NCBI GenBank assembly: GCA_944387055.1 | Contig: CALXDL010000003.1 | Coordinates: 1-35,024 of the forward strand | DNA: 35,024 nt | Direction: 5' to 3' | Origin: an uncultured Oscillospiraceae bacterium | GTDB taxonomy: Bacteria; Bacillota; Clostridia; Oscillospirales; Oscillospiraceae | Shown: piece after piece, positions 4,383-19,226 of the stretch | Layout of the letters: every line of letters begins with the position of its first letter | Position numbering within the stretch: the stretch's first letter is position 1 | Position numbers and translations under genes: made by a program | Notes under the pieces: generated by a model | What the model was told of the DNA's origin: nothing | Seen by the model: only the letters and a program-made list of their open reading frames with translations | Databases searched by the model: none

Positions 4383-4418
4383 CCCATGGCGCAGCGGTAT
4401 GCCATCTGGAGGGAACAG

Positions 4419-4639: not shown

Positions 4640-5917
4640 TCAAGGAAGGATGTCGTATAGGGAAGCCGTCACCAGCCACGTCTGGGAGAAGGGGCGCATC
4701 AGGTTCCAGAACCCAGCGCCCCGGACTCCATATCCAGCGATCAGCCGCAGTTTGGCATCCAGACTGCGGGCATCTTCGAACCAGACAGCGTGCTCTGTGC
4801 CGGTACCGTCCGTGTAATAGAAAAAGGGGGACTGGGCGGTCTCGTCATACTCGATCGCCACACCGTATTGGATCGCCAGCTCGATGGCCCGCTGGTTGGA
4901 GATGGACCGGGCCCGTGTGACGTCCTGGACGAAGGGGAGCGGCCAGTCATACCCGTAGTTGGGGACGCCCAGAAAGATCTTTTCAGGAGGGATCTCCATG
5001 ACGGCATAGTCCAGTACCGCGCGGACATTGGGCAGGGGCGCAACGGCCATCGGCGGCCCCGCCACATAGCCCCACTCGTAGGTCATCAACAAGACCGCAT
5101 CCACAGCGGCACCGACAGCGGCATAGTCGTGGCCTTCATACAGGAGGCCGGGCTGATCGGCGGAGGTCTTGGGGGCTAGCGCCGCCCAGAGGAAGCGGCC
5201 CTGGGCGTTCAGCAGCCGCCGTAAACGGCCGAGGAAAGCCGCATAAGCCGCTGCCAAGCTGCCGGGGAGATATTCGAAGTCCACGTCCAGCCCGGCATAG
5301 CCCCGGAGACGGATCGTCTCCAGCACCTGGTCGATGAGCTGCTCTTGGATGGCCTCATCCGTCAGGACCAGTACGGCCCGTCCTGTATCGAACTGCCCGC
5401 TCTCTGTCAGGGTGGACAGATGCATCACAGGACGGGCGCCCCGCTGTCGGGCGGCAGTGAGGAGCGCGTCGTCATCCAGGGGGAACAGGCTGCCGTCGGC
5501 GGTGATGCCGTAGGTGAAGGGAGTGAGATAGGTGAGGTAGGGCAGCTGAGCCGCCAAGAGCTGCTGATCCACGAAAGGATAGGCATAGCCATTGAAGGAA
5601 GCAGTCCCCAGACGCTCCTCGAAATATGCGATCGTCAGTACGTCGCCAGGCTGGAGGTCTGTGCTGCCGCCCAGAGGCCAATTGTTCTGCCAGAGCTGGC
5701 GGACGGTGATCCCGTAAGATGCTGCGATGGAGGAGAGCGTCTCCCCCTGGCGGACCGTGTGGAGGATCCGGGGGAAACGGAGCACTAGGGTCTGCCCTAC
5801 GGCCAAGGCGCCGTCGGGGGGGACCTCGTTGTCCGCCGCCAACCGGGTGGGATCGACTCCGTACCGCTCCGCGATGGTGCCGACGGTCTCGCCGGCTTGT
5901 ACGACATGGATGGTCAT
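4640..5917 (-). CDS. sleL: Spore cortex-lytic N-acetylglucosaminidase-like protein, two LysM domains plus GH18 (SleL/YaaH family)
   Basis: Predicted peptidoglycan glycosidase acting on spore cortex fragments during germination. The 425 residues match the usual length of about 430 for SleL/YaaH. Two LysM modules occupy about 2-47 (IHVVQAGETVG...) and 50-95 (ILHTVRQGETLSSIA...), followed by a glycoside hydrolase 18 barrel whose catalytic DVDFE lies at 211-215 with acid Glu215. The WNLMRPF strand near the C terminus is typical of the family. The frame stays open upstream, but the ATG at 5917 has an AGAGGTG ribosome site about ten bases away and begins right at the first LysM, with no signal peptide, as usual for this family. 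It is the main evidence in the window that the host forms spores. It stands alone and converges on the diguanylate cyclase gene. Confidence 0.9.
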   Translation of the reverse strand: MTIHVVQAGETVGTIAERYGVDPTRLAADNEVPPDGALAVGQTLVLRFPRILHTVRQGETLSSIAASYGITVRQLWQNNWPLGGSTDLQPGDVLTIAYFEERLGTASFNGYAYPFVDQQLLAAQLPYLTYLTPFTYGITADGSLFPLDDDALLTAARQRGARPVMHLSTLTESGQFDTGRAVLVLTDEAIQEQLIDQVLETIRLRGYAGLDVDFEYLPGSLAAAYAAFLGRLRRLLNAQGRFLWAALAPKTSADQPGLLYEGHDYAAVGAAVDAVLLMTYEWGYVAGPPMAVAPLPNVRAVLDYAVMEIPPEKIFLGVPNYGYDWPLPFVQDVTRARSISNQRAIELAIQYGVAIEYDETAQSPFFYYTDGTGTEHAVWFEDARSLDAKLRLIAGYGVRGAGFWNLMRPFSQTWLVTASLYDILP

Positions 5918-6071
5918 TCCAGCGTTCACCTCTTTCACGTCTTTCACACAGAGCCTATGCGCCTGGTGCGGCAGATAGAAGGGCAAGAGACAGTCGGTCC
6001 TTGGGGAGGAGGAGAGAACGGCGGGAAAGACGTCAGGAGGGCACAGAGACCGGCACGGCCATAAAAAAATC

Positions 6072-6119
6072 TTGCCTTTTCGACAGCCGTGCGATACCAT
6101 GAAGATGGTATTCTATAAT
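6072..6119 (+). promoter_or_regulatory. Promoter region and inverted-repeat operator before the LysR gene
   Basis: Two -10 candidates are visible: TACCAT (6095-6100), 17 bases after TTGCCT (6072-6077), and a perfect TATAAT (6114-6119) that lacks a good -35. A perfect inverted repeat ATACCAT-GAAG-ATGGTAT (6094-6111) overlaps the first and abuts the second, a position suited to autoregulation by the LysR protein. It lacks the exact T-N11-A spacing of the classic LysR box. Confidence 0.5.
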
Positions 6120-6186
6120 ATCTCGTTCATGACATTGGATATGAAGGATATGAATGACGAGGGATGAGGAGGCGAGCGGACCGCGT

Positions 6187-7068
6187 ATGAATATCAAGAA
6201 GTATGAGGCGTTCATCCGAGCCGTGGAACTGGGGAGCCTTTCGAAGGCTGCGGAAGAATTGGGATATACCCAGTCTGGCATCAGCCATATGATGCAGTCC
6301 TTGGAGGACGAGGTGGGGTTCCCACTGATGGTGCGCACGTCCGCAGGCATCCTGCCCAATCCGGAGGGGGAGATGCTGCTGCCGACCATCCGCCAGCTCC
6401 TGAGCACCAACGAGGCGCTGGAACAGTACATCGCCAAGATCAAGGGCGTGGACATCGGCCACATCCGGATCGCTTCCTATCCCAGTGTGGCAGCCTACTG
6501 GCTGCCCACGATCATCCGGAACTTCCAAAAGGATTATCCCAACGTGGATATCCAGATCATGGAGGCGGGCAGCGACACCATCGAAGATATCATGCGCCAC
6601 CGGGAGGCGGATTTGTGCCTGTACGCGGGAGGTGAGAACCAGGAGTTCGAGTGGCTGCCCCTGTGCCGGGACCAGCTGCTGGCCCTCGTCCCACCGGACC
6701 ACCCACTGACGGAACACAACGCCGTCCCGCTGGAGGCGTTCTCATCCGAGCCTTTCATCATGCCCATGCCCGGCTATGACGGAGAGGTCCACGACATCCT
6801 GGATCAGTTGGAACAGCGGCCCCATATCCGCTTCTCCGCATGCAGTGACTATACCATTATCTCGATGGTCGCCGAGGGATTGGGGCTGTCGATCTTGACC
6901 GAGCTGCTGCTGCGCAACTACCCCAACGATGCCGTGGCGCTCCCCATGGATCCGCCCCAGTATCGGATGCTGGGCATGGGTGTGCCGCAGATCAAGACCG
7001 CTTCTCCGGTGACCCGGAACTTCATACGATATGTCCAAGCCTATGTGAAGGGCCTCAAGCAGGGATGA
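6187..7068 (+). CDS. LysR-family transcriptional regulator
   Basis: DNA-binding regulator with the standard LysR plan in 293 residues: a winged helix-turn-helix at the N terminus (SLSKAAEELGYTQSGISHMM) and an effector-binding domain of the periplasmic-binding-protein fold from about 85 (GHIRIASYPSVAAYWLP) to 290. The start chosen puts the helix-turn-helix at the usual distance from the N terminus; AGGAGG lies fourteen bases upstream, longer than ideal, and an in-frame ATG at 6154 would add eleven residues. It sits 112 bases before the Mrp antiporter operon on the same strand with no clear terminator between, so it may regulate that operon, which is inference. The ligand is unknown. Confidence 0.88.
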   Translation: MNIKKYEAFIRAVELGSLSKAAEELGYTQSGISHMMQSLEDEVGFPLMVRTSAGILPNPEGEMLLPTIRQLLSTNEALEQYIAKIKGVDIGHIRIASYPSVAAYWLPTIIRNFQKDYPNVDIQIMEAGSDTIEDIMRHREADLCLYAGGENQEFEWLPLCRDQLLALVPPDHPLTEHNAVPLEAFSSEPFIMPMPGYDGEVHDILDQLEQRPHIRFSACSDYTIISMVAEGLGLSILTELLLRNYPNDAVALPMDPPQYRMLGMGVPQIKTASPVTRNFIRYVQAYVKGLKQG

Positions 7069-7106
7069 GGCACGGGCTGTTCCCCAGTGGGACAGAGACA
7101 AAACAG

Positions 7107-7147
7107 TTGACAGGATAGCGAAGGGTCTATTAAACTAAAGATAGTTT
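7107..7147 (+). promoter_or_regulatory. Promoter and small inverted repeat before the Mrp operon
   Basis: A perfect TTGACA (7107-7112) is followed after 18 bases by TAAACT (7131-7136); TATTAA at 15 bases is a second option. The inverted repeat AAACTA-AAGA-TAGTTT (7132-7147) covers the -10 element and could be an operator. The ribosome site GAGGAGGGG (7164-7172) follows. Confidence 0.55.
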
Positions 7148-7180
7148 GTTGACTTTCTACAAAGAGGAGGGGACAGCGGC

Positions 7181-7636
7181 ATGCCTGTACTGTTTTTCTT
7201 GATATGGCTGCTGCTGGCAGGGGAGATGACGCTGCGGACCTGTCTGTGGGGCGTAGCGGTCTCTGCGCTGCTCAGCTGGGCCTGCCGCAAGTTCCTCGGC
7301 CATCGCCGGCGGCCCTGGCGGGGCCTGGGGGAGATAGGCGCCTGCGTGTCGTATCTGTGGTATCTCCTGCGAGAGATACTCAAGGCGGGATTCGTGGTGA
7401 TGCGCCTCATCTATACGAAGGGCGCGCAGGTGGAGCCCAAGCTCATCTGGTTCGATACCACGCTCCGCAGTGACCGGGCCAGGACGGTGCTGGCGGATTC
7501 CATCACCCTCACCGCGGGGACCATCACCGTCACGGCAGAGGACGGCAGGTTCTGTGTCCACGCGCTGGACGCATCTCTGGCGGAGGGGATCGAGCACTGC
7601 GAGTTCCAGCGGCGGCTGGAGAAGCTGGAGGCCTGA
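7181..7636 (+). CDS. mrpE: Mrp-type Na+/H+ antiporter subunit E (MbhA-like)
   Basis: Small membrane subunit of the multisubunit Mrp cation/proton antiporter. The 151 residues begin with two closely spaced hydrophobic segments (7-35) and continue into the soluble domain typical of MrpE, with the family stretch SITLTAGTITV and an ending in EFQRRLEKLEA. It is the first gene of a ten-gene operon and has the strongest ribosome site of the group. MrpE is needed for full activity or assembly in studied Mrp systems. The next gene begins two bases after its stop. Confidence 0.92.
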   Translation: MPVLFFLIWLLLAGEMTLRTCLWGVAVSALLSWACRKFLGHRRRPWRGLGEIGACVSYLWYLLREILKAGFVVMRLIYTKGAQVEPKLIWFDTTLRSDRARTVLADSITLTAGTITVTAEDGRFCVHALDASLAEGIEHCEFQRRLEKLEA

Positions 7637-7638
7637 GT

Positions 7639-7953
7639 ATGGAGACGATCCGGAACTTGCTGCTGGATGGGACTACCGCCGTCCTATCGCTCCTGATATT
7701 GGCCACGCTGGTGCGGGCCATCCTGGGACCGCGCTTCACAGACCGCATCATCGCCGTGAACGTGATCAACACCCTGGTGGTGGCCATCCTGGCGATCTTG
7801 TCCGTGCGGATGCGGGAGGACTTTTTGGTGGATGTGGCCCTGGTCTACGCTCTGCTGAGCTTCTTGACGGTGGTGGTGGCCGCCCGGCTGGTGCGGCCCC
7901 GCCGGCAGGGGAAGGACGGCGGACACAAGAAGGGGGAGAGAAGGACTTCATGA
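7639..7953 (+). CDS. mrpF: Mrp-type antiporter subunit F (MbhB-like)
   Basis: Three-helix membrane subunit of the Mrp complex. The 104 residues contain three hydrophobic segments and the family pattern RAILGPRFTDRIIAVNVINT, followed by DFLVDVALVYALLSFLTVVV. The end is charged (RPRRQGKDGGHKK). It starts two bases after mrpE with GGAGG upstream, and its stop overlaps the next start in an ATGA, so it is translationally coupled on both sides. Confidence 0.93.
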   Translation: METIRNLLLDGTTAVLSLLILATLVRAILGPRFTDRIIAVNVINTLVVAILAILSVRMREDFLVDVALVYALLSFLTVVVAARLVRPRRQGKDGGHKKGERRTS

Positions 7954-8273
7954 TCGATGCTGTGGTGACGGCAGCGGGCCTGGCGCTGGTGCTGTTCGGC
8001 CTGTTCGTCTTTTTCTCGGCGGTGTTGGGCCTATACCGCCTGCACTATGTGCTGGACCGGATGCACGCGGCTGCCGTGGGAGATGCTCTGGGGATATTCT
8101 GCATCCTGGCCGGGCTGATCCTCCTGCACGGATGGAGCCTGGCGGCGGCCAAGACCCTGCTGATCATCCTGTTCTTATGGCTCACCAGCCCGGTGGCCAG
8201 CCATCTCATCGCGGAGATGGAGGTAGAGACCGTGCCGGATATCCGGCGGGAATGTGAGGTGGAGGAACGATGA
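7950..8273 (+). CDS. mrpG: Mrp-type antiporter subunit G (MbhC-like)
   Basis: Small membrane subunit of the Mrp complex, 107 residues with three hydrophobic helices. The family stretch YRLHYVLDRMHAAAVGDALG after helix one is the usual MrpG signature (R-hydrophobic-D-x-x-x-R-x-H-A). The start is the ATG at 7950, inside the mrpF stop overlap; an open reading upstream in this frame is only read-through of the mrpF region. Its own stop overlaps the next ATG, again as ATGA. Confidence 0.93.
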   Translation: MIDAVVTAAGLALVLFGLFVFFSAVLGLYRLHYVLDRMHAAAVGDALGIFCILAGLILLHGWSLAAAKTLLIILFLWLTSPVASHLIAEMEVETVPDIRRECEVEER

Positions 8274-8521
8274 TCGTCTTGGAATATATCCTGCTCATCA
8301 GCGTGGTGGTATGTGCGGTGGCAGCCCCTTTGTGCAAGCGGCCGCTGGTCATGGTCATCGTGTACATGGCGTTCTCCCTGATGATGGCCGTGCTTTGGAG
8401 CCTGCTCCAGAGCCCGGACCTCGCTATGACTGAGGCGGCCGTGGGCGCTGGCATCACCAGCATCCTCTTTTTCCTGACGCTCAAGAAGATCCATGCGCTG
8501 AAAGGTACGAAGGATGAGTAA
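8270..8521 (+). CDS. DUF4040 subunit, MbhD-like (equivalent to part of the MrpA C-terminal region)
   Basis: An 83-residue membrane protein with about three helices, carrying the motif PDLAMTEAAVGAGITSILFFLTL found in MbhD of membrane-bound hydrogenases and in the C-terminal extension of MrpA. Glu in MTEAAVG is the conserved charged residue thought to belong to the ion path next to the small subunits. A separate gene for this segment is the Mbh arrangement; in Bacillus-type Mrp it is fused to MrpA. It overlaps mrpG by four bases and the next gene by eight. Confidence 0.88.
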   Translation: MIVLEYILLISVVVCAVAAPLCKRPLVMVIVYMAFSLMMAVLWSLLQSPDLAMTEAAVGAGITSILFFLTLKKIHALKGTKDE

Positions 8522-9407
8522 CGGACCGGAGAAACAGGACTGGCGGACCCGCTTAGTGTCCTGGGTGGATGGAGACCGGGAACCCAAGGACCAGAGCCTG
8601 TTCGTGATGGAGCAGCGCCATCGCAGGCGCTTCCTGCCGACAGAGGAGGAACATGAGCGGCGGGAGAAGACCCGGCTGCACCGGTTCTTCAACTGGTATC
8701 CCGTGGCGGCAGTCTTCATCGCCTTGACACTGGTGACGGTACTGCTGGGCACAGTGCTCCAGATGCCGCTGTTCGGGCAAGAGAGCAACCCCATCAACAA
8801 CGAAGTGGCGGAGCACTATCTGGAGCATGGCGAAGAGGATACTGGCTCTTCTAACGCTGTGACGGCGATGATCCTCAGCTACCGGGGCTTCGACACGCTG
8901 GGAGAGAGCTGCGTACTGTTCCTGGCAGTGACCAGCGTGATGATGCTGTTGCTCAAAGATGGCGAGGACGAGGACGGGAAATTGGCCCGGCGCAGCGCGC
9001 GGGAAGCGGACCAAGAAGAGCATGGGGATATCATCCTGAAACGGACGGCCTGGGTGCTGACGCCTTTCATCTTCCTGTTCGCGATCTATGTGCTGCTCAA
9101 CGGTGAGACTTCGCCCGGCGGCGGCTTTTCCGGCGGCACGATCTTGGGGGCGGGACTGATCTTGTTCTCCTCTGCGTTCGGCCAGCGGAACGTGCGTGTC
9201 ATCATGGACCGCAAGACATACAGCTTCATACGGACCTTTGGCCTGATGCTCTATGCGCTTTTATACGGGGCATACATCTTCTTTGGCGCCAACGGATTGC
9301 CCAACTATCTGGCTGGGATGGCGCTGCTGATCGATCTGGCGGTGGGCCTGGTGGTGGCCTGTACGATCTACGGATTCTACGCGCTTTTCTCCACCGGAGA
9401 GATATGA
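8514..9407 (+). CDS. mrpB: Fused MbhE-like and MnhB/MrpB subunit of the antiporter
   Basis: This 297-residue protein joins two subunits that are separate in Pyrococcus Mbh. A cytosolic, charged N-terminal tail (1-60) leads into an MbhE-like part with a helix near 62-82 and the stretch VTAMILSYRGFDTLGES (about 117-133). After a charged linker (DGEDEDGKLARRSAR) comes a complete MnhB domain with ILKRTAWVLTPFIFLFAIYV and the signature GETSPGGGFSGGTILGAGL. The first methionine overlaps the end of the DUF4040 gene. The long hydrophilic tail of about 60 residues has no function I can name. Assignment to MrpB is secure; the MbhE part rests on position and the YRGFDTLGE motif. Confidence 0.87.
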   Translation: MSNGPEKQDWRTRLVSWVDGDREPKDQSLFVMEQRHRRRFLPTEEEHERREKTRLHRFFNWYPVAAVFIALTLVTVLLGTVLQMPLFGQESNPINNEVAEHYLEHGEEDTGSSNAVTAMILSYRGFDTLGESCVLFLAVTSVMMLLLKDGEDEDGKLARRSAREADQEEHGDIILKRTAWVLTPFIFLFAIYVLLNGETSPGGGFSGGTILGAGLILFSSAFGQRNVRVIMDRKTYSFIRTFGLMLYALLYGAYIFFGANGLPNYLAGMALLIDLAVGLVVACTIYGFYALFSTGEI

Positions 9408-9432
9408 TATCTTGGAAAGGCGGTCATTCGGG

Positions 9433-9807
9433 ATGCTGGAAACGATCTTACAGGACCGGTTCGCGGTGACAGCCGTGATCTTGTTCGGTATCGGTTTTAT
9501 GAACCTTATGCTGCAGCAGGACCTGCTGAAGAAAGTGGTGGGCTTCAACATCATGGATTCCGCCGTCTTCCTGCTGCTGGCATCCTTGGGGTATATCGAG
9601 GGGCACACCGCGCCGATCGTGGAGGAGGGGGCGGTCAACGCGTCCCTCTACATCAATCCGATCCCCAGCGGCTTGGTGCTCACTGGCATCGTGGTGTCCG
9701 TCAGCATCACCGCTTTTTCTCTGGCACTGATCCAGCGCATCTACCGCCGCTATGGGACCATCCAGCTGCGGGAACTGCTGGAGAAGGCCAAAAAGGAGGA
9801 AGACTGA
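9433..9807 (+). CDS. mrpC: Mrp-type antiporter subunit C (NuoK/MbhG-like)
   Basis: Three-helix subunit homologous to NuoK of complex I. The 124 residues hold three helices, the NuoK-like motif MLQQDLLKKVVGFNIMDSAVFLLL, and the third-helix run PIPSGLVLTGIVVSVSITAFSLAL typical of MrpC. The ATG at 9433 has AAAGGCGG nine bases upstream; a TTG at 9412 in the same frame is less likely because it leaves little room for a ribosome site after the previous stop. The stop shares bases with the next start (TGATG). Confidence 0.92.
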   Translation: MLETILQDRFAVTAVILFGIGFMNLMLQQDLLKKVVGFNIMDSAVFLLLASLGYIEGHTAPIVEEGAVNASLYINPIPSGLVLTGIVVSVSITAFSLALIQRIYRRYGTIQLRELLEKAKKEED

Positions 9808-11321
9808 TGCGGCCGCTGGTGGAGAATTTCCCGTTTTTCTGCATCTTCTTGGCCATCGTGGCTGGGATCCTCTCGGCGACGCTCTGCCACGGCCGGGTGG
9901 CCTATGGCCTGACGCTTGCCAGCAACGCTGTGATCGCAGTGCTGTCCGCTTACACACTGGGGTATGTGTGTACCACGGGGGAGAGCTTCGTCTATACCAT
10001 GGGGCGGTTCACCGCACCCTTCGGCAACGCGATCCGGTGCGGCCCGCTCCAAGCGATGATGGCGCTGGTGTTCACTCTGGTGATGGCCACGTCTCTGATC
10101 GGGGGACAGCGAGACCTGTTCCACGATGTAGCCCGCTCCAGGCAGCCATTCTATTTCACCATGGTCGATCTGCTGGAGGCGTCGCTGCTGGCGCTCGTCT
10201 ATACCGATGACGTGTTCACCGGCTACGTCTTCATCGAGATCAGTACCATCGCCGCCTGCGCGCTGGTGATGGCCAAGGACACCGGCCCCAACCTCATCGC
10301 CACTGTGCGCTATCTCTTCATGAGTCTGTTGGGATCCGGGCTGTTCCTCATCGGCCTGACCATCCTCAACAGCATCACGGGATACCTGCTGATGCCGCCT
10401 TTGGCGCAGGCGGTGGCGGCCCTGTGGGAGAGCGGGAGCTATCTCGTCCCGCTGACGGTGTCCGTCGGGCTGATCGTGGCGGGCCTTGGGATCAAGAGCG
10501 CCATGTTCCCCTTCCATATGTGGCTGCCGGACGCCCACGGCGGCGCCACCACGACGTCCTCTGCGATCCTCTCCGGTCTGGTCCTCAAAGGATATATCAT
10601 GCTGATGATGACCATGATGGTGCGAGTGTTCTCCATGGACCTCATGGAGGAGCTGGGCGTCACGGACGTGATGCTGGCCTTCGGCCTGCTGGGGATGATC
10701 TTCGGCTCTCTGGGGGCTTTGCGGGAATACCACATCAAGCGGATGCTGGCATATTCCTCTGTGGCGCAGATCGGGTACATCTTCATGGGCTTGGGCGTGG
10801 GTTCGACAGAGGGCGTGGTGGCCTCCTGCTTCCACGTCCTGGTCCACGCCTGCTGCAAGCCGCTGCTGTTCCTATGCGCTGGGCGGCTGTCGGCGGTCAG
10901 CGGCCATCACAGGAGCCTGAAGAACCTGCGCGGCAGTGCCTATCGGGACTTGGTGGCGGGACTGGGGTTCACAGTGGGGGCGCTGTCGATGATCGGCATC
11001 CCGCTGCTGGGTGGGTTCGTGTCGAAGCTCTACTTTGCCAACGCCTCCTTGCTGACGAACAAGACGGCGGTGGTCCTGCTGACCATCGCACTGTCCACCG
11101 TGCTCAACGCCCTCTACTATATTCCCGCGCTCCTTGGCATCTGGGTCAAGCCCGCTCCGGAGGAGACGGCCATAGTGGTGGCCGATGCGACGGCCGAAGA
11201 ACTGGCGTTCGACCGCTCCTTCACAGCGGCGGCCCTGGTGCTCATGGCCGCGATCTTCGTGCTGGGCATCTTCTATCATCCCATCACCGATGTGATCGAA
11301 TTGGGCGTGAGGCATTTTTGA
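9807..11321 (+). CDS. mrpD: Antiporter-like proton channel subunit 1 (MrpD/MbhH type)
   Basis: First of four paralogous antiporter-like subunits related to MrpA/MrpD and to NuoL, NuoM and NuoN. The 504 residues are almost entirely hydrophobic with about 14 helices. Residues expected in a working proton path are present: Glu144 in VFIEIST (helix 5), Lys230 in GIKSAMFPFHMWLPDAH (helix 7), Lys261 in LVLKGY (helix 8) and Lys407 in FVSKLY (helix 12). The signature MWLPDAHGGATTTSSAILSG marks the Proton_antipo_M family. It overlaps mrpC by one base. Its position directly after mrpC equals that of MbhH, so it is the best candidate for the true MrpD. Confidence 0.93.
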   Translation: MRPLVENFPFFCIFLAIVAGILSATLCHGRVAYGLTLASNAVIAVLSAYTLGYVCTTGESFVYTMGRFTAPFGNAIRCGPLQAMMALVFTLVMATSLIGGQRDLFHDVARSRQPFYFTMVDLLEASLLALVYTDDVFTGYVFIEISTIAACALVMAKDTGPNLIATVRYLFMSLLGSGLFLIGLTILNSITGYLLMPPLAQAVAALWESGSYLVPLTVSVGLIVAGLGIKSAMFPFHMWLPDAHGGATTTSSAILSGLVLKGYIMLMMTMMVRVFSMDLMEELGVTDVMLAFGLLGMIFGSLGALREYHIKRMLAYSSVAQIGYIFMGLGVGSTEGVVASCFHVLVHACCKPLLFLCAGRLSAVSGHHRSLKNLRGSAYRDLVAGLGFTVGALSMIGIPLLGGFVSKLYFANASLLTNKTAVVLLTIALSTVLNALYYIPALLGIWVKPAPEETAIVVADATAEELAFDRSFTAAALVLMAAIFVLGIFYHPITDVIELGVRHF

Positions 11322-11396
11322 CCGCCGGGACCTACGGCGGAGCGCTCCGGTGCACAGCGCCGGAACGGACGAACGACGAGAGACGGGAGGAGACCT

Positions 11397-12845
11397 ATGC
11401 TGTTGCTGCTGCCGGTCCTGGTGCCCATCCTGGGCGGGCTCTGGGTGTTCCATGTGAAAACTGAACAGGCACGCCAGCGCGTGATCCTGGGGATCCTCCT
11501 GGCAACGGCGGTCCTGACCCTTGTCATCTGTCTGCTGCCGGAACAGGCGGCAGACCTGTTGACCATCCAGGGAGAGCTGCGCCTGGCCCTGCGCAGCGAC
11601 TTGCTGGCCAAGTTCTTCATGGTGCTCTGCTGCTGCATCTGGGCACCGGTGACGTTCTTTGCCTTCCCCTATATCCAGCATGTGGGACACGAGAGACATT
11701 TCTTCACGTTCTACACCATGACTTTGGGCGTGCTGATGGGACTGGCCCTGGCGGCCAATTTCGTGACCATGTACATGTTTTTCGAGATGATGTCCCTGGC
11801 CACCGTACCCATGGTGCTCCACGGTGCCACGGCTTCGGCCCGGCGGGCGGGCTTCAAGTACTTAGGGTTCTCCGTTTTCGGTGCCGGCATGGCCCTGGCA
11901 GGCTATTTCTTCGTGGCCTATTATCTGGCGGTCCCGGATTTCGTCGCCGGCGGCACCATCGACGTGGAGCGGGCGGCGGCCCACGGGCCCATGCTGCTGG
12001 TGGTATACTGCCTGATGATCGTGGGGTTCGGCGCGAAAGCAGGCATGATGCCGATGCAGTCGTGGCTGCCTGCGGCCCACCCTGTGGCGCCGGCTCCGGC
12101 GTCAGCGGTGCTCTCCGGCGTCATCACCAAGGGCGGTGTGCTGGCGGTCATCCGCGTCACGTATTATATGTTCGGGCCGGAACTGCTTCGAGGCACTTGG
12201 CCGCAGGCGGTGCTGCTGATCTTAGCACTGAGCACCGTGTTCGTTGGCTCGATGCTGGCTTTTCGGGAGAAGCAGCTCAAGCGTCGGCTGGCGTATTCCA
12301 CGGTGAGCCAAGTCTCCTATGTACTCTTCGGCCTGCTGCTGCTCACTCCGGGGGGGGTGGCGGCGGCACTGCTGCAGATGGTGTTCCACGCGGTGGCCAA
12401 GGACCTGCTCTTCCTCTCTGCGGGCGCGGTCATCCACTCCACCAGCTATATGCGGGTGGATCAGCTGCGCGGGATCGGGCGCCGGATGCCGGTGACGATG
12501 TGGTGCTTCACGCTGGCTGCGCTCTCCATCATCGGCATCCCACCTATGGCCGGCGCCATCAGCAAGTGGTATCTGCTGACGGCAGGGATGGAGGCGGATG
12601 TGGGCGCCTTTGGCACGGCTGGCCTCGTGGTGCTGATCGTGTCCGCGCTGCTGACTGCCGGCTATCTGCTGCCGATCGTCACCAAGGGCTTCTTCCCGGG
12701 AAAGGATGTCATCGTGGAGCGGAGAGAGGTCGGACGCTGGATGCTCTGGCCCCAGGCGGTCCTGGCGGCGGCAGCCGTCCTGCTGGGGCTGTTCCCCGGC
12801 GGACTGATCGAATGGTTCAGCGGCTTCGCGGCGGGGCTGTTTTGA
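11397..12845 (+). CDS. Antiporter-like proton channel subunit 2 (MrpD/NuoM-like)
   Basis: Second antiporter-like subunit, 482 residues, about 14 helices. Helix 5 Glu130 in FFEMMSLATVP, helix 7 Lys214 in GAKAGMMPMQSWLPAAH, helix 8 Lys245 in VITKGGV and helix 12 Lys390 in AISKWYLL are all kept, so ion translocation is plausible. The motif HPVAPAPASAVLSG is shared with the fourth subunit, which suggests these two are closer to each other. The start follows GGGAGGAG by five bases; a 75-base spacer separates it from subunit 1, the second-longest gap in the operon. Confidence 0.9.
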   Translation: MLLLLPVLVPILGGLWVFHVKTEQARQRVILGILLATAVLTLVICLLPEQAADLLTIQGELRLALRSDLLAKFFMVLCCCIWAPVTFFAFPYIQHVGHERHFFTFYTMTLGVLMGLALAANFVTMYMFFEMMSLATVPMVLHGATASARRAGFKYLGFSVFGAGMALAGYFFVAYYLAVPDFVAGGTIDVERAAAHGPMLLVVYCLMIVGFGAKAGMMPMQSWLPAAHPVAPAPASAVLSGVITKGGVLAVIRVTYYMFGPELLRGTWPQAVLLILALSTVFVGSMLAFREKQLKRRLAYSTVSQVSYVLFGLLLLTPGGVAAALLQMVFHAVAKDLLFLSAGAVIHSTSYMRVDQLRGIGRRMPVTMWCFTLAALSIIGIPPMAGAISKWYLLTAGMEADVGAFGTAGLVVLIVSALLTAGYLLPIVTKGFFPGKDVIVERREVGRWMLWPQAVLAAAAVLLGLFPGGLIEWFSGFAAGLF

Positions 12846-12903
12846 GCCGCGGAGCATATCCAGCGGCGAAGACGTCCGCCGGTATCGAGAAGGAGGTGGA
12901 GAG

Positions 12904-14394
12904 ATGAGACAGATCCTGACGTTCCCCATCCTGGTCCCCATCGTGCTGGGGGTGATCTTGCTGACGTGGCAGCCCAAGCGCCGCGCCGTGCGCAGCGCCT
13001 ATATCCTCTCCGCCGTGGGGATCACTTCTGCGCTCTCCTTCGCCTGTATCTTCCTGACCTATTCTTTGGGCAGCGACGCGCTGGCCTGCGTGATGGTGCG
13101 CTTCAACGAAGCGTTCTCTATCTCGCTGCGCATCGACGGTGCATCGATGGTCTACGGCGCCATCGTCTCGTTCCTCTGGCCGCTGGTGACGGTCTATGCC
13201 CTGGAGTACATGTCACACGAGGGGCACGAGGAGCGCTTCTTCGCGTTCTGGCTGATGGCCTACGGTATCGTGATGGGGATCGCGTACGCAGAGGACTTCC
13301 TGTCGCTCTACCTCTTCTACGAGCTGCTGACTTTGTCCACACTGCCTCTGGTGATGCATGCCATGGACGAGAAGGCGCGCTACGCGGGGCGGAAGTATTT
13401 GATCTATTCGCTCTCCGGCGCGGCATTCGCTTTCATCGGGTTGGTGTTCCTGCTGAACTACGGCGTCGGACACCTGAACTTCACATATGGCGGTGTGCTG
13501 GATATGAGCCGCGTTGCGGGGCATGAGCAGACGCTCCTGCTGGTGTTCGTGGCCGCGTTTTTCGGTTTTGGCGTGAAGGCGGCCATCTTCCCCTTCTACT
13601 CCTGGCTGCCGGATGCCTCTGTAGCGCCGACGCCGGTCAGCGCTCTGCTCCACGCAGTGGCAGTGGTGAAGGCCGGGGCGTTCGCTGTGCTGCGGCTCAT
13701 CTATTTTGGGTTCGGCACGGACCTCCTCCGGGGGACCTGGGCACAGGATGTGGTGATGGCGGCCACCATCATCACGATCGTGTATGGCTCCGCCCGGGCA
13801 CTGCGGACGCCTCATCTGAAGCGCCGGCTGGCCTTCTCCACAGTCAGCAACCTCTCCTATATCCTGTTCGCCTTCACCCTGATGAGTCCGGCGGGGCTCA
13901 CGGGCGGGATGACGCACATGGTCTATCACGCCTTCATCAAGATCACGATGTTCTGCTGTGCCGGGGCCATCATCCACAAGAGCGGCCGGGAATATGTCTA
14001 CGAGCTGGAGGCTCTGGGCTATCGGATGCCGGTGGTGTTCGCCACCTTCACGATCTCCTCCTTCGCCCTGATCGGGCTGCCTCCCCTGGGCGGCTTCGCG
14101 GGGAAGTGGATGATCGCGGAGGGAGCGGTGGCCTCCGGTTCTCCGCTGGCTTATGTGGGCATCGGTGCGCTGATCTTGTCCACGCTGCTGACCACGCTCT
14201 ATCTCATCACCATCGTCGCCCGTGCCTATTTCCCGATCGGAGCGCTGGACCGGGAGGCGCTGGCACGGATCCACGATCCCGGCAAGACCATGACGGTGCC
14301 TCTGGCACTTCTGACGGCGTCCGGCGTGGTGCTGGCGCTTTGCTCGGATCATATCATCCGGTTCCTGGCCCTGGTGGGCCGCGGCCTGTTGTGA
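12904..14394 (+). CDS. Antiporter-like proton channel subunit 3 (NuoN/MrpD-like)
   Basis: Third antiporter-like subunit, 496 residues, about 14 helices. The conserved ion-path residues are Glu140 in LFYELLTLSTLP, Lys225 in GVKAAIFPFYSWLPDAS, Lys256 in HAVAVVKAGAFAV with His250 before it, and Lys401 in FAGKWMIAEG. The run VAPTPVSALLHAVAVVKAG is the version typical of NuoL/NuoN and MrpA-type subunits rather than MrpD. A consensus ribosome site AAGGAGGTGG stands just before the ATG. Ten bases separate it from the next gene. Confidence 0.9.
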   Translation: MRQILTFPILVPIVLGVILLTWQPKRRAVRSAYILSAVGITSALSFACIFLTYSLGSDALACVMVRFNEAFSISLRIDGASMVYGAIVSFLWPLVTVYALEYMSHEGHEERFFAFWLMAYGIVMGIAYAEDFLSLYLFYELLTLSTLPLVMHAMDEKARYAGRKYLIYSLSGAAFAFIGLVFLLNYGVGHLNFTYGGVLDMSRVAGHEQTLLLVFVAAFFGFGVKAAIFPFYSWLPDASVAPTPVSALLHAVAVVKAGAFAVLRLIYFGFGTDLLRGTWAQDVVMAATIITIVYGSARALRTPHLKRRLAFSTVSNLSYILFAFTLMSPAGLTGGMTHMVYHAFIKITMFCCAGAIIHKSGREYVYELEALGYRMPVVFATFTISSFALIGLPPLGGFAGKWMIAEGAVASGSPLAYVGIGALILSTLLTTLYLITIVARAYFPIGALDREALARIHDPGKTMTVPLALLTASGVVLALCSDHIIRFLALVGRGLL

Positions 14395-14404
14395 GGAGGA
14401 GACC

Positions 14405-16348
14405 ATGGGAGAGATGATGCTCTTGTTCCTGGTGCTGTTCCCGCTGGCGTCTGCGGCTGCGGTCTATCCCCTGCGCCGCCGGGGCAGAGATCTGCGGGAA
14501 TCCTATGTCCGGGTGATCCCGATGGTGGTGCTGGCGGGGGCGCTGCTCCTGTTGCTCTATCCACAGGCAAGCGTGGACCTGCCGTGGGTCTGTGGCCTCG
14601 GCCTGCGGTTCTCCGCAGGGGGGCTGCACTCTTTGCTGGTCCTGGTGGCGGCGTTCCTGTGGGCTATGACGGGATTGAACTGCCCAGCCTATTTCTTTGG
14701 TGAGGAAGGGTGCAACCGCTTCTATGTGTTCTGGCTGCTGACGCTGGGAGCGCTGATGGGCGTGTTTCTGGCGGCGGACCTGTTCACACTGTTCGTATTC
14801 TTCGAGATGATGTCTTTCACCTCCTACGTCTGGGTGGTCCAGAATGAGACGCAGGAGGCCCTACGGGCAGGGGAGACCTATCTGGCGGTGGCTGTCATCG
14901 GCGGCATGGCACTGCTCTCCGGTCTGGTGCTGCTCTCTGATCTCCTGGGTACACTGGAGCTGGAGGCGCTCTATCCGGCCGCTGCGGCGCTGCCGGCGGA
15001 CCAGCGGGGACGGCTGTATGTGGCAGGCGGGCTGTGCCTGGCGGGCTTTGGCGCCAAGGCAGGCATGTTCCCGCTGCACATCTGGCTGCCTAAGGCCCAT
15101 CCGGTGGCTCCGGCTCCTGCGTCCGCGCTGCTCTCCGGCATCCTGACCAAGAGCGGCGTGTTCGGTATCCTCATCCTCTCCCGGTACCTATTCTGGGCGG
15201 ATATCGCCTGGGAGCGGACGCTGCTGGCCCTGGGCGTCGTGACGATGGTGCTGGGCGCGGTGCTGGCGGTGTCCTCCATCGACCTCAAGCGGACCCTGGC
15301 CTGCTCCTCCATGTCGCAGATCGGCTTCATCCTGGTGGGTGTGGCCATGCAGGGTTTCCTGGACGGCGAGAACGCCCTGGCCGCCTGGGGGACCGTGCTC
15401 CATATGCTCAATCACAGCGTCATCAAATTGGTGCTCTTCGTTGCCGCCGGTGTGGTCTATCATGGGACACATTCCCTGGATCTCAACGAGATCCGCGGCT
15501 GGGGACGGGGAAAACCCTGGCTGGCAGTGACGTTCTTCATCGGGGCCGCTTCCATCGCGGGCGTGCCGGGCTTTTCCGGTTATGTCAGCAAGACGCTGCT
15601 CCATGAGAGCATCGTGGAATACATCCATGTGCTGGAGCATGCGGGTACTTCCGCTGCACCGTTCCAGGTGGTGGAGTGGCTGTTCCTGATCGCCGGCGGT
15701 CTGACCGCCGCCTATATGACCAAACTCTTCGTGTGCTTGTTCCTCTCGCCGCGGCCATCCGGGCAGCGGCCATCCGTGCGGGAATATATGTCCAGGGGGA
15801 CACAGGTGGCGCTGTTGCTGGGCGCCCTCATCCTGGTGGGCCTGGGGCTCACGCCGGGGAAGACCATGGAGCCTTTGGCCGCATGGGCAGCCGTCACGCT
15901 CCGGGCAGACTCCGGACATGCGGTCCACTATTTCACGTGGGTGAACCTGCAGGGCGCGTGCATCTCTTTGGGCATCGGCGCGCTGGTCTATCTGCTGGTG
16001 ATCCGCGGGCTGTTGAGCAAGCGGGAGAATGGAGCGCTGCGCTATCTGGACCGCTGGCCCAAATGGCTGGACTTGGAGGAGCTGGTCTACCGGCCGGTCC
16101 TGCGGGGCCTCTCTTTCGCAGGGGCGTTCTGTGCCCGTGCGGCGGCGTCTGTGGGAGACGTGTGCATCCTTTTGGGGGAGAAGCTGCTCTTCACCAAGGC
16201 GCCGGGCATCTTCGTGCCTAAGCGGAGCGAGAACTTCGGCGCATATGGGCGCAAGCCTCTGCGCTTCCGGGTGGAGGAGACGTTCTCCTTCGACCTTCTG
16301 GCGGCCGGTATCGGACTGGTGGTGCTGCTGGTGTATATCTTGCTTTAA
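14405..16348 (+). CDS. Antiporter-like proton channel subunit 4 with C-terminal extension (NuoL/HyfB-like)
   Basis: Fourth and longest antiporter-like subunit, 647 residues. The core keeps Glu134 in FFEMMSFTSYV, Lys218 in GAKAGMFPLHIWLPKAH, Lys249 in ILTKSGV and Lys396 in YVSKTLLHESIVE. After the core, about residues 535-647 add an amphipathic stretch (LRYLDRWPKWLDLEELVYRP and onward) and a final membrane helix ending VVLLVYILL, resembling the C-terminal extension of NuoL or HyfB, which runs along the other antiporter subunits as a lateral helix. GAGGAGGAG precedes the ATG. It closes the operon; no hydrogenase or dehydrogenase subunit follows. Confidence 0.9.
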   Translation: MGEMMLLFLVLFPLASAAAVYPLRRRGRDLRESYVRVIPMVVLAGALLLLLYPQASVDLPWVCGLGLRFSAGGLHSLLVLVAAFLWAMTGLNCPAYFFGEEGCNRFYVFWLLTLGALMGVFLAADLFTLFVFFEMMSFTSYVWVVQNETQEALRAGETYLAVAVIGGMALLSGLVLLSDLLGTLELEALYPAAAALPADQRGRLYVAGGLCLAGFGAKAGMFPLHIWLPKAHPVAPAPASALLSGILTKSGVFGILILSRYLFWADIAWERTLLALGVVTMVLGAVLAVSSIDLKRTLACSSMSQIGFILVGVAMQGFLDGENALAAWGTVLHMLNHSVIKLVLFVAAGVVYHGTHSLDLNEIRGWGRGKPWLAVTFFIGAASIAGVPGFSGYVSKTLLHESIVEYIHVLEHAGTSAAPFQVVEWLFLIAGGLTAAYMTKLFVCLFLSPRPSGQRPSVREYMSRGTQVALLLGALILVGLGLTPGKTMEPLAAWAAVTLRADSGHAVHYFTWVNLQGACISLGIGALVYLLVIRGLLSKRENGALRYLDRWPKWLDLEELVYRPVLRGLSFAGAFCARAAASVGDVCILLGEKLLFTKAPGIFVPKRSENFGAYGRKPLRFRVEETFSFDLLAAGIGLVVLLVYILL

Positions 16349-16730: not shown

Positions 16731-18200
16731 TTATTTGTGGATCAGACGGTTGCAGCGCTTCTTGCCGTACCAGACGATGATGCCGACATAGGCCACCACA
16801 CAGACAGCGCCGACGGGATAGGCGATGCCCCAGGGCAGGTTGAAGCCGATGGCAGCATTGGAGATGTAAGTGGAGCAGATGAAGGTGTAGAAAGCGCCGG
16901 GGATCAAGGGGATCCAGGCGAACTTGCCCTTGCCGTTTTCGAACATCCATACGGAGATGGCCAGGAACGCGAACAGAGACAGCGTCTGGTTGGACCAGGC
17001 GAAATAGCGCCACAGGATGTTGAAGCCGTTGGGATTGACCTTGGCAAACACCAGGATCACAGCCACCAGAGCGAACACAGGGACCGCCAGAGAAAGGCGC
17101 TTGGCATTGGTGGACTGATCCAGGTGGAAGGTCTCAGACAGGGTCAGGCGCAGGCCGCGCAGAGCGGTATCGCCGGAGGTGACAGGCAGGACCACGACGC
17201 CCGCCAGAGCGATGATGCTGCCCACAGGGCCAAGGATGTCGCGGCAGACAGCGATGACGGTGCTGGTGGCGCTGGCAGTGGCCTCCTGTGCACCCAGGTT
17301 GAAGATACCCATGGCGGCAGCGGCCCAAACCATGGCGATGAAGCCCTCCAGGACCATCATGTTGTAGAAGGTCATGCGGCCCTGCCGTTCACTCTTCATG
17401 GTGCGGGAGATGATGGCCGTCTGCGTGGAGTGGAAGCCGGAGAGGATGCCGCAGGCCACGGTCACAAAGAAGATGGGGATGAAGTGGTTCTCGCCGAAGT
17501 AGTCGCCATAGGCGAAGATGGCACCGTTCCAGTCGTCCCAGATGTCCAGCAGGGGATAGCCCTTGATGAACAGACCGATGAACACGCCGATGGCGGAGAA
17601 CATCAGGATGGCACCGAAGATGGGATAGATCTTGCCGATGATGGCATCGATGGGGAACACGGTGGCGACCAGATAGTACGCAAAGATGCAGCCGTAGATG
17701 ACCCAGGTGGAGACGGAGGTCGCCGCGCCGTCGAAGCCGAAGATGCCGGTAGCGGCGATGTCGCCGGGGGTGTAGATGAACACGGCGCCCACCAACAGCA
17801 GCAGCACACACACGAAAATGTTGTAAATGGTGAAAATGCCCTTGTTGGAGTACTTGCGGATCATGGCGGACATCTGAGAGCCGCCGTCACGCAGGCAGAT
17901 CATGCCGCAGAAATAGTCGTGCATGGCGCCGCCGATGATGTTGCCGATGGGGATGGTGATGAACGCGATGGGCCCGAAGAGGATGCCCTGGATGGGCCCG
18001 AAGATGGGGCCGGTGCCCGCGATGTTGAGCAGGTTGATCAGAGCGTTCTTCCAGCAGCGCATGGGGACATAGTCCACGCCGTCCTGCTTGGAATAGGCCG
18101 GCGTCTCGCGGTCGTCGGGGCCGAAGACCTTTTCGCAGAACTTGCCGTAAATGGCAGCGCCGCCGAAAAGGATCACCAGGCCGATGATGAATGTTGCCAT
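16731..18200 (-). CDS. cstA: CstA-family carbon starvation transporter (short form)
   Basis: Polytopic inner-membrane transporter of the CstA/BtsT family, whose studied members import pyruvate or peptides. The 489 residues are shorter than the roughly 700 of E. coli CstA and correspond to the compact form seen in many anaerobic Firmicutes. Family marks include LINLLNIAGTGPIFGPIQG, GGAMHDYFCGMICLRDGGSQ, GFHSTQTAIISRTMKSERQG and VLPVTSGDTALRGLRL. The ATG at 18200 has AAAGGAG nine bases upstream; a GTG two codons earlier is not needed. The two-component genes lie directly upstream on the same strand, separated by a terminator and about 300 bases with palindromes, pointing to control by that system (inference). 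The substrate cannot be told from sequence. Confidence 0.92.
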   Translation of the reverse strand: MATFIIGLVILFGGAAIYGKFCEKVFGPDDRETPAYSKQDGVDYVPMRCWKNALINLLNIAGTGPIFGPIQGILFGPIAFITIPIGNIIGGAMHDYFCGMICLRDGGSQMSAMIRKYSNKGIFTIYNIFVCVLLLLVGAVFIYTPGDIAATGIFGFDGAATSVSTWVIYGCIFAYYLVATVFPIDAIIGKIYPIFGAILMFSAIGVFIGLFIKGYPLLDIWDDWNGAIFAYGDYFGENHFIPIFFVTVACGILSGFHSTQTAIISRTMKSERQGRMTFYNMMVLEGFIAMVWAAAAMGIFNLGAQEATASATSTVIAVCRDILGPVGSIIALAGVVVLPVTSGDTALRGLRLTLSETFHLDQSTNAKRLSLAVPVFALVAVILVFAKVNPNGFNILWRYFAWSNQTLSLFAFLAISVWMFENGKGKFAWIPLIPGAFYTFICSTYISNAAIGFNLPWGIAYPVGAVCVVAYVGIIVWYGKKRCNRLIHK

Positions 18201-18222
18201 AAACACACACTCCTTTTTTTGG

Positions 18223-18240
18223 GCTTCCCTATAGGGAAGC
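18223..18240 (-). promoter_or_regulatory. Perfect 18-bp palindrome in the cstA leader
   Basis: GCTTCCCTATAGGGAAGC is fully self-complementary. It would form a hairpin in the cstA mRNA 22 bases before the start codon, next to an A-rich stretch with the ribosome site, or serve as an operator in DNA. No T tract follows on the minus strand, so it is not a standard terminator. Confidence 0.6.
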
Positions 18241-18259
18241 GCTCCTTAGGTACCCTCTT

Positions 18260-18273
18260 ACGATAGCAGATAT
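18260..18273 (-). promoter_or_regulatory. Candidate extended -10 promoter of cstA
   Basis: Read on the minus strand this is ATATCTGCTATCGT: an extended -10 (TGC then TATCGT). The same ATATCTGCTAT occurs before the gene at 20522, and ATCTGCTAT in the two-component promoter. No convincing -35 is present, which fits an extended -10 or an activator-dependent promoter. Confidence 0.4.
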
Positions 18274-18319
18274 TTTTGGGCCGTGGCGTTAAGACAACTG
18301 GCATGGCAGCTAAAATATG

Positions 18320-18332
18320 TTAAGAGATATCT
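18320..18332 (-). promoter_or_regulatory. Candidate response-regulator site upstream of cstA
   Basis: TTAAGAGATATCT lies about 50 bases upstream of the candidate cstA promoter. A near copy, TTAACGATATCT on the minus strand (20367-20378), lies upstream of the two-component operon. A second GTTAAGA at 18288-18294 is 31 bases, about three helical turns, from GTTAAGA at 18319-18325. A shared regulator is a reasonable guess. Confidence 0.35.
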
Positions 18333-18349
18333 GAAAGATCGCCAATGAT

Positions 18350-18367
18350 CCGTAAAAATTTTTACGG
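18350..18367. promoter_or_regulatory. Perfect 18-bp AT-centred palindrome between the two-component genes and cstA
   Basis: CCGTAAAAATTTTTACGG is fully self-complementary. It is about 80 bases upstream of the candidate cstA promoter, a place for an activator or repressor site. As RNA it would make only a weak hairpin, so a DNA-level role is likelier. Confidence 0.5.
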
Positions 18368-18386
18368 GATGGATATCTATGGATGA

Positions 18387-18420
18387 AAAGAGGCCCGGCC
18401 CACTCCAGCGGGCCGGACCT
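18387..18420 (-). terminator. Terminator after the response regulator gene
   Basis: On the minus strand an 11-bp stem with one mismatch (18410-18420 with 18391-18401) and an eight-base loop ends in TCTTTTC. It separates the two-component operon from cstA, so the latter needs its own promoter. Confidence 0.82.
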
Positions 18421-18506
18421 TACGATATCTGGGGAAGTGGCATATGCCTTACGAAGATCGCCGCAGTCCCGGTGAGGCCGTGTGTCTGGTGCGATGGGAC
18501 TGTGCT

Positions 18507-19214
18507 TCAGTCGCCTTCTGCCATCCGGTAACCGACGCCGACCTCGGTGAAGAGATACTCCGGCTCTGCGGGATTCTTCTCGATCTTCCGGCGGATATTG
18601 GCCATGTTCACCCGCAAGATCTGGTTGTCACCACTGGCGCGGGGACCCCAGAGCTCCTTGATGATGAAATCATAGGTCAACACCTTGCCGGCGTACTTGG
18701 CCAGGAGCGCCACGATGCGGAACTCGCTGAGCGTCAGCTTCACGTTCTCCCCACGGACCAGTGCTTGGTGCTTATTGAAATCTACCGTCAGCTCCCCCAC
18801 GGTATAGGTCCCCTTCTGGGCGATCTCATCGTTCCCAGAGGTGGTACGGGTATGGCGGATCGCGGCGCGGACCCGCGCCAATAACTCGTCCGTGCCAAAA
18901 GGCTTGGTCAGATAATCGTCCGCGCCCAGGTCCAGAGCCTCCACCTTGTCACGCTCATGGGAACGGGCGGAGACCACGACGACCGGGAGACTGGACCAGG
19001 TACGCAGGTTCCGCAGGAGCTCGATGCCGTCCATGTCCGGCAGGCCTAAGTCCAGGATGATCAGGTCCGGACAGTGGGAGGAGATCATCGACTGGGCTTC
19101 GGCACCAGTGCGGGCCTGCATGGCCTCGTAACCGTTGGAAGTCAAGACGGTAGAAATGAAGTGGGAGATGGTCTTCTCATCTTCCACCACTAGGATCTTT
19201 TCACGGATATTCAT
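18507..19214 (-). CDS. kdpE: OmpR/KdpE-family response regulator
   Basis: Two-domain DNA-binding response regulator of 235 residues. The receiver domain has the acidic pocket at EDE (11-13), phospho-acceptor Asp55 in LIILDLGLPD, and the KPFG lysine; the C-terminal winged helix carries KLTLSEFRIVALLAKYAGKVLT and ends with LFTEVGVGYRM. Wording is closest to KdpE. The second of two in-frame ATGs is preferred because AAGGAG sits eight bases before it and only two before the first. That ribosome site overlaps the stop of the kinase gene, so the pair is coupled. No kdpFABC potassium pump is in the window; the nearest gene downstream is cstA, the likely target. Confidence 0.92.
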   Translation of the reverse strand: MNIREKILVVEDEKTISHFISTVLTSNGYEAMQARTGAEAQSMISSHCPDLIILDLGLPDMDGIELLRNLRTWSSLPVVVVSARSHERDKVEALDLGADDYLTKPFGTDELLARVRAAIRHTRTTSGNDEIAQKGTYTVGELTVDFNKHQALVRGENVKLTLSEFRIVALLAKYAGKVLTYDFIIKELWGPRASGDNQILRVNMANIRRKIEKNPAEPEYLFTEVGVGYRMAEGD

Positions 19215-19226
19215 GGACATCTCTCC

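Follow-up and report, generated by a model that had tools for sequence, protein, structure and literature searches.

What does a membrane complex with four antiporter-like subunits do when no catalytic module is encoded beside it? The question is raised by a block of ten genes in an uncultured, Oscillibacter-like gut member of the Oscillospiraceae, known from a metagenome-assembled genome (MAG; assembly GCA_944387055.1). The window analyzed is the whole stretch of 35,024 nucleotides from contig CALXDL010000003.1, and the block occupies positions 7181-16348 on its + strand. We conclude, with good confidence, that it encodes an enlarged stand-alone cation/proton exchanger of the group 3 Mrp type, as judged from its sequence and from that of its relatives (below, L, G and C numbers are our handles for loci, genomes and contigs).

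The ten-gene block

Pfam profiles gave, in order, MNHE, MrpF_PhaF, PhaG_MnhG, MbhD, MbhE together with MnhB in a single protein, Oxidored_q2 and four times Proton_antipo_M, which confirms the Mrp/Mbh-type block with four antiporter-like subunits, here called D1 to D4, that an earlier note on this DNA had described. The genes are listed with the expectation values (E) of their profile matches.

7181..7636, + strand: MrpE/MnhE-like subunit, MbhA homolog (PF01899, E 1.3e-30)
7639..7953, + strand: MrpF-like subunit, MbhB homolog (PF04066, E 4e-15)
7950..8273, + strand: MrpG-like subunit, MbhC homolog (PF03334, E 8.6e-23)
8270..8521, + strand: DUF4040/MbhD-like subunit with conserved Glu55 (PF13244, E 1.2e-19)
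8514..9407, + strand: fused MbhE and MnhB subunit (PF20501 and PF04039 within one protein)
9433..9807, + strand: MrpC/NuoK-like subunit (PF00420, E 5.1e-18)
9807..11321, + strand: D1, first antiporter-like subunit, in a clade of its own across families (PF00361, E 1.5e-51)
11397..12845, + strand: D2, first middle antiporter-like subunit, sister clade of D3 (PF00361, E 3.1e-52)
12904..14394, + strand: D3, second middle antiporter-like subunit, sister clade of D2 (PF00361, E 3.7e-54; PF00662)
14405..16348, + strand: D4, last antiporter-like subunit, with a C-terminal extension (transmembrane helix TM15, long helix, TM16) as in MrpA/NuoL (PF00361, E 1.7e-54; AlphaFold model)

The order was rightly equated by the note with mbhA-H of Pyrococcus, MbhE and MbhF being fused in the window. 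The matches of the four Proton_antipo_M proteins (E 1.5e-51 to 1.7e-54; 504, 482, 496 and 647 aa for D1 to D4) are far beyond chance, and by the coordinates of the open reading frames (ORFs) neighboring genes either share bases or are separated by no more than 75 bp. The MrpG start is the ATG at 7950, corrected from the ORF translation, and that of MrpC is most likely the ATG at 9433 rather than the TTG at 9412, where the ORF tool opens. In the whole genome (2.12 Mb in 106 contigs, estimated to be 85% complete), PF00361 matches D1-D4 and nothing further.

Group 3 Mrp operons are described as lacking mrpA and as sometimes having several mrpD copies (PMC8415708). The window agrees with this description in that none of its four PF00361 proteins contains MbhD or MbhE, no fused mrpA is present (D4 is still MrpA-like in fold), and the small subunits E, F, G, B and C are all encoded. 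The operons known from Pyrococcus furiosus (mrpEFGBB'CD) and from Peptoclostridium, Aminobacter and Natronorubrum (three D units, viewed directly in the annotation) have a similar set and order of small subunits and likewise no fused MrpA, but carry one or three antiporter-like subunits where the window has four; in the last three organisms, no hydrogenase or complex I genes are annotated in the stretches shown. By published descriptions, Aphanothece has two mrpD genes (PMC5703873), two NuoM/NuoL-like genes come after mrpD in Nitrospira (PMC7784846), and a serpentinite MAG carries MrpDD in addition to MrpEFGBBBCD (PMC6305446). No Mrp operon with at least four MrpD-type subunits, and no rnf-mrp-apbE operon, was found in the accessible parts of the open-licence literature.

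Other known systems are more distant. The subunits of group 1/2 Mrp complexes (Bacillus pseudofirmus, Anoxybacillus, Dietzia) are homologous, and D4 folds like the N-part of their MrpA, but their MrpA is fused to MbhD/MbhE and their antiporter-like subunits number two (PMC7419157), whereas in the window the antiporter part and MbhD/MbhE are on separate genes and there are four such subunits; MrpF Asp35 and the histidine pair of MrpC also differ. The membrane-bound hydrogenase (MBH) and sulfane reductase (MBS) of P. furiosus share with the window the mbhA-H order and the acidic residues of MbhD, MbhE and MbhG, but have a hydrogenase or sulfane-reductase module, none of which was found for this block. 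The membrane arm of complex I (NuoL/M/N) resembles the block in that its homologous antiporter-like subunits stand in a row with a NuoL-like one at the end; it has three units and a redox arm, whereas the window has four units and no redox arm that could be found, and the NuoM-type helix-12 Glu (PMC7419157) is absent from the window, where all four units have Lys.

Conservation across Clostridia

The block is old. The search of other genomes for the same ten genes, proposed in the earlier note, gathered 62 window-type loci, of which three pairs had been fetched twice, leaving 59 distinct. D1-D4 are all present in 56 of these, and by their coordinates the other three end at a contig end. Already in a first scan of 40 loci, 36 (L005-L040) had their visible genes in the order of the window, some being cut by contig ends, and the sole departure from this order among the 59 is a five-unit array, L051 (G018:C44). 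The extra unit of L051 is a second D1-type gene added to the window block. All ten subunits were assigned by BLAST in 27 of the 59 loci, and tblastn assigns more. The hosts belong to the Oscillospiraceae, the Lachnospiraceae and further families of Clostridia; the nearest relatives by D3 (71-82% identity) are Oscillibacter, Dysosmobacter and other Oscillospiraceae, and two loci from further families of the phylum (L145, L146) group with the window type in a wider tree. Within a sample of 150 genomes from the host family, any PF00361 match was found in 39, and four such genes stand in tandem on one contig in 18, one of them cut short; G018 has five, G032 three and G010 two, and G016, G025, G106 and G107 have pieces on short contigs.

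Charged axis and fold of the antiporter-like subunits

In each of the four units, helix 5 carries a Glu and helices 7, 8 and 12 each carry a Lys, the helices being numbered by homology to solved MrpD/MrpA chains: E144/K230/K261/K407 in D1, E130/K214/K245/K390 in D2, E140/K225/K256/K401 in D3 and E134/K218/K249/K396 in D4. The note had read these residues correctly, and the loss of charged residues among relatives that it named as a refuting outcome was seen at one place only, the helix-8 Lys of D3. All four are kept in the window-type relatives of D1 (56/56), D2 (61/61) and D4 (58/58), and in D3 the residues on helices 5, 7 and 12 are each kept in 62/62 and that on helix 8 in 57/62, with Asn in L013, L014, L033, L035 and L069; these counts (n=56-62) predate the finding of the three duplicate pairs, and n varies among subunits since BLAST left some small ORFs without assignment.

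Such conservation bears on whether all units work. The extra subunits may mainly enlarge or stabilize the complex, or one of them may be an inactive spacer, so that the H+:cation ratio would stay that of a two-unit Mrp. The replacement of the D3 helix-8 Lys in 5/62 relatives speaks for this, as does the loss of single charged residues in other arrays, for example in 12 three-unit arrays (L123-L125, L127, L130-L132, L149, L153, L155, L156 and L158) whose last unit has Asn in place of the helix-7 Lys. However, no aligned window-type relative lacks Glu5, Lys7 or Lys12 in any unit, a constancy that would be needless in a spacer, and we regard this explanation as possible but rather doubtful.

MbhH was the best solved match for all four subunits. 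For the AlphaFold model of D4 (mean predicted local distance difference test score, pLDDT, 82.7; 54-68 in the long helix 557-595 and <50 in the last helix), the best solved fold match was the MrpA chain 7qru_A of Bacillus pseudofirmus, with 651 columns, TMq 0.77 and a root-mean-square deviation of 6.1. Because of this match, D4 most likely occupies the place of MrpA/NuoL. At the other end of the row, D1 would be seated next to MrpC, as the gene order suggests; the joints that tie D1 to MrpD, MbhH and NuoN are weak in both subunit trees (96 and 90 subunits).

Search for a catalytic partner

The earlier note had offered two possibilities, a stand-alone Na+/H+ exchanger of unusually high ratio and an arm that docks a distant redox module. 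The families PF00346 (NuoD type) and PF01058 (NuoB type), which represent the hydrogenase large and small subunits, had no match in this 85%-complete genome, and 21 of the 23 genomes in which arrays or pieces of arrays were seen likewise had neither. In G046 and G094, the remaining two, the array and the matches are on separate contigs; both are among the 11 of the 23 host genomes with completeness of 90% or more and contamination of 5% or less. Because NuoB- and NuoD-type genes were thus found neither here nor in most array genomes, the block is best assigned to a known kind, as an enlarged group 3 Mrp.

Direct searches near the arrays point the same way. With nine Nuo and six Hyf proteins of Escherichia coli as tblastn queries against 64 loci and the window, no redox gene was found by 54 window-type loci save at the edge of L068, where a NuoG-like stretch (58-396, - strand) lies about 3.6 kb downstream of D4 and is the sole such match beside a window-type block; the NuoK query matched MrpC itself. 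Eight window-type loci fetched later had no Nuo or Hyf match beyond the block's own subunits. These queries were single E. coli proteins, which distant homologs could escape. Rnf profiles likewise found Rnf genes at 0/62 window-type loci in the stretches examined, at least 2 kb upstream being in view in 52 of the 55 loci with mrpE visible.

The flanks reveal no consistent partner. In the window, a lysR gene precedes the block and cstA, which is on the opposite strand, follows it, and neither rnf genes beside mrpE nor a downstream apbE, the features of Rnf-linked Mrp clusters, are present. Profile and E. coli protein searches also found none of the NuoB, NuoCD and NuoH that accompany the membrane arm in complex I, and the absence of PF00346 and PF01058 from this genome applies equally to MBH and energy-converting hydrogenases. 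Among 129 flank proteins of window-type loci (the 132 nearest ORFs, three left out for size), no Pfam family occurred in more than five; 25 of 156 families were listed, and rare redox families could hide among the rest. Homologs of apbE do occur by window-type blocks without adjacent Rnf, directly after D4 in L086 (13605-14675) and several kb upstream in L056 (168-1283). Farther along the window, 21510-24824 and 31458-33530 encode proteins with S-layer homology domains, the second with an added carboxylesterase domain.

Related blocks elsewhere in the phylum do adjoin redox genes. A phylum-level MbhE search gave matches in 139/398 genomes, from which 56 regions were fetched: 40 hand-picked among the listed MbhE matches with short reading frames, and 16 from genomes with two MbhE matches (L071-L076 and L099-L118 lie outside the analysis, and L126, L159 and L160 overlap). 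In 13 regions (L121, L133, L134, L138, L154, L157, L161, L164, L165, L166, L170, L172 and L174), rnf genes lie upstream of mrpE on the same strand; the shares of 6/40 and 7/16 are not frequencies, owing to the choice of regions. These Rnf-linked blocks are group 3 mrp with two to four D units. Homologs of RnfC, RnfD, RnfA/E and RnfB were found in 12/13 of them, with the last rnf gene at most 0.7 kb from mrpE, and an apbE homolog follows the block in 12/13; in L121, RnfC and an RnfD-G fusion alone were confirmed. In L133, Pfam identified RnfC, RnfD, an FMN-binding RnfG-type protein, two Rnf-Nqr proteins, an RnfB-like Fe-S protein and ApbE. In L134 and L154, a moaC gene separates the RnfB-like gene from mrpE. 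Blocks of one or two units adjoin NiFe-hydrogenase-like genes (L119, L139), and two-unit blocks adjoin NuoB/NuoCD-like genes in L144, L147 and L148, where the first unit has Glu in place of the helix-7 Lys. L120 has NuoE/F/G-like genes and a molybdopterin oxidoreductase (3220-8169) upstream of a three-unit mrp block and a second NuoE/F/G-like set (17113-19899) downstream of it.

Thus the stand-alone arm of the note's first possibility was supported, with four intact subunits and no redox genes found, its unusually high ratio being conceivable; docking, the second, found no support for this block. The adjoining redox genes that the note had named as a refuting sign do occur, but in related blocks and not, save for the edge of L068, at window-type loci. 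A redox pump with this four-unit arm as its membrane half and a catalytic half (hydrogenase, complex-I-like or Rnf) encoded elsewhere is suggested by these related blocks and by the genes of the NqrB/RnfD/RnfE family (PF03116) at G000:C24 and C62 of this genome. Nevertheless, the lack of NuoB/NuoD matches in this and 21/23 host genomes, though many MAGs are incomplete, and of Rnf genes beside window-type blocks in the stretches examined makes this very improbable. Rnf is, moreover, a complete pump by itself.

Predicted cation path and mode of action

The small subunits retain most of the residues expected of a cation path. In window-type relatives, the MbhD Glu (Glu55 in the window) is kept in 52/52, the MbhE Asp and Glu are both kept in 55/55, and MrpC Asp49, in the place of MbhG D37, is kept in 47/47; the MbhD, MbhE and MrpC residues align with the solved MBH chains. 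One Pro and one His of MrpG are kept in 49/49. In MrpE, the Thr of a Thr-Pro pair is kept in 55/55 relatives, the Pro in 45/55 and a His in 51/55. These residues of MrpE (the pair as T113/P114) and of MrpG were equated with published mutated residues by motif. The fused MbhE-MnhB protein is 282-391 aa long in 55/55 window-type ORFs. MbhE and MnhB are two genes in the three-unit arrays compared first, and their fusion was considered as a hallmark of the four-unit type; this was dropped, as some two- and three-unit arrays (L142, L149, L150) are also fused.

A stand-alone Na+/H+ exchanger is the best reading of the block. E, F, G, MbhD, MbhE-MnhB and C would form the cation-handling end, with the cation site at the MrpC/MbhD end, and D1 would be set against this end as are MrpD and MbhH. 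D2 and D3, the duplicated middle unit, and D4 would lengthen the row of half-channels, with the C-terminal helix of the MrpA/NuoL-like D4 probably acting as a brace. Protons would cross each D unit via the Glu5-Lys7-Lys8-Lys12 axis, adjacent units may be coupled electrostatically, and the row would power cation movement at its far end, so that proton and sodium gradients could be interconverted. Most hosts also carry an Rnf/Nqr-type membrane gene (PF03116, in 20/23 host genomes), and for Acetobacterium Rnf has been described as pumping Na+. In Methanosarcina acetivorans, according to a published speculation, Mrp would trade the sodium gradient made by Rnf for one of protons (PMC3160891), and the stand-alone Mrp of P. 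furiosus is reported to use Na+ and to influence the response to pH, with Na+ moving in and H+ out when the pH drops (PMC8415708).

Several observations weigh against this reading. PF03116 is not enriched in hosts (20/23 vs 128/150 in the family sample), and therefore no case can be made here for a specific Rnf partnership. The place of MrpE Pro114 is held by Ala in the window and in 10/55 relatives. MrpF Asp35 is described as invariably conserved and on the Na+ path (PMC7419157), but in the alignment to solved chains the place of this residue (Anoxybacillus flavithermus numbering) is taken by Asn41 in the window, and Asn is found there in 45/46 window-type relatives and in 10/10 other aligned arrays; Aminobacter has Gln, and group 1/2 references (L077, L078) and MBH/MBS have Asp. 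The MrpC histidine pair is replaced by Ser/Thr/Ala and Phe/Tyr in the window lineage. Because MrpF Asp35 and the MrpC pair are replaced, the cation could be K+ or another, and the complex could serve K+ or pH homeostasis. A TrkA_N domain in 2/129 flank proteins would agree with this. However, the acidic residues of the Na+-pumping MBH (the MrpC Asp, the MbhD Glu and the Asp and Glu of MbhE) are all kept, and the listed flank domains reveal no consistent partner; exchange of K+ or another cation in place of Na+ is accordingly considered unlikely.

Origin of the four units

In trees of 96 and 90 subunits, D1, D2, D3 and D4 each form one clade that spans families. The suspicion that they are recent copies of one gene, which the earlier note had proposed to check with a tree, is rejected by these old, separate clades and by identities of 26-38% among the four in the window, although D2 and D3 are sisters (support 100/99 in the 96-subunit tree and 100/100 in the 90-subunit tree). 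Outside their own clades, D2 and D3 come closest to the middle subunits of three-unit arrays (Peptoclostridium acidaminophilum has one of these), with weak support (89/39 and 87/42); the larger set, which also takes in the middle subunits of haloarchaea and Aminobacter, has firm support (100/99, 96-subunit tree). In approximately unbiased (AU) tests, for which the groups were picked after inspection of the trees, grouping of D2 alone with the three-unit middle subunits was rejected (p 0.0017), and likewise that of D3 alone (p 0.0028). Because D2 and D3 are sisters and neither is grouped alone with these subunits, the array most likely gained its extra unit when the middle one of a group 3 Mrp operon was duplicated, and this would have preceded the spread of the sampled families.

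Four-unit arrays of a second kind (L079, L080, L128 and L129) are built on the same Mrp base as the window but differ from it in the third unit, which falls in a different clade (B type) of the wider tree. A single origin for all four-unit arrays was considered and set aside, as the trees give at least two kinds; the AU test rejects placement of the L079/L080 third unit with D2 and D3 weakly, with p just 0.035. The expansion in these four loci looks separate from that of the window. D2 and D3 remain sisters in the wider tree. Because this tree has a second middle type (B), the ancestor may have been D1-A-B-D4, with the three-unit arrays reduced from it.

Arrays of different length

The design of Mrp arrays is plastic across the phylum. 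Related blocks have one to seven antiporter-like units overall, and the largest tandem run in the first 40 regions was three in 22, two in 9, four in 6, one in 2 and six in 1. The longest arrays are L159, with a run of six and one unit upstream, which makes seven, and L163, from another genus of the same family, with seven units, the last cut by the end of the stretch; L162 has five. The full Glu-Lys-Lys-Lys set is present in every subunit of these three. Their gene order is changed: (MnhB-)C-D-E-F-G-MbhD-MbhE comes first and a further four or six antiporter-like genes stand after it, and each locus has one or another small subunit without assignment. The genomes of L159, L163 and L162 (G864, G750 and G727) each also have an Rnf-linked three-unit block (L165, L164 and L161, respectively).

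It is tempting to regard Mrp complexes as gear boxes of adjustable length, in which a cation end is joined to a row of one to seven proton channels, lengthened by duplication of the middle unit, and each unit adds one proton per cycle and so sets the H+:cation ratio. The four-unit array of the window and the five- and seven-unit arrays would then be high-ratio exchangers. This proposal is tentative, and we consider it rather unlikely. If it were true, such complexes could turn a weak proton gradient into a steep one of Na+, or work in the opposite sense.

For complex I and Mrp alike, the number of protons moved per antiporter-like subunit and the coupling between units of a row are open questions; the exchange ratio of Mrp is not fully established experimentally (PMC7419157). 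Arrays that differ chiefly in the number of units, with the axis mostly intact and no helix-12 Glu, would provide a natural ladder on which the contribution per unit could be measured without a redox reaction. The rnf-mrp-apbE clusters, if confirmed in named isolates, would tie a ferredoxin-driven pump genetically to an Mrp exchanger. The four-unit block is of moderate interest alone, and of more as one rung of this ladder of array lengths.

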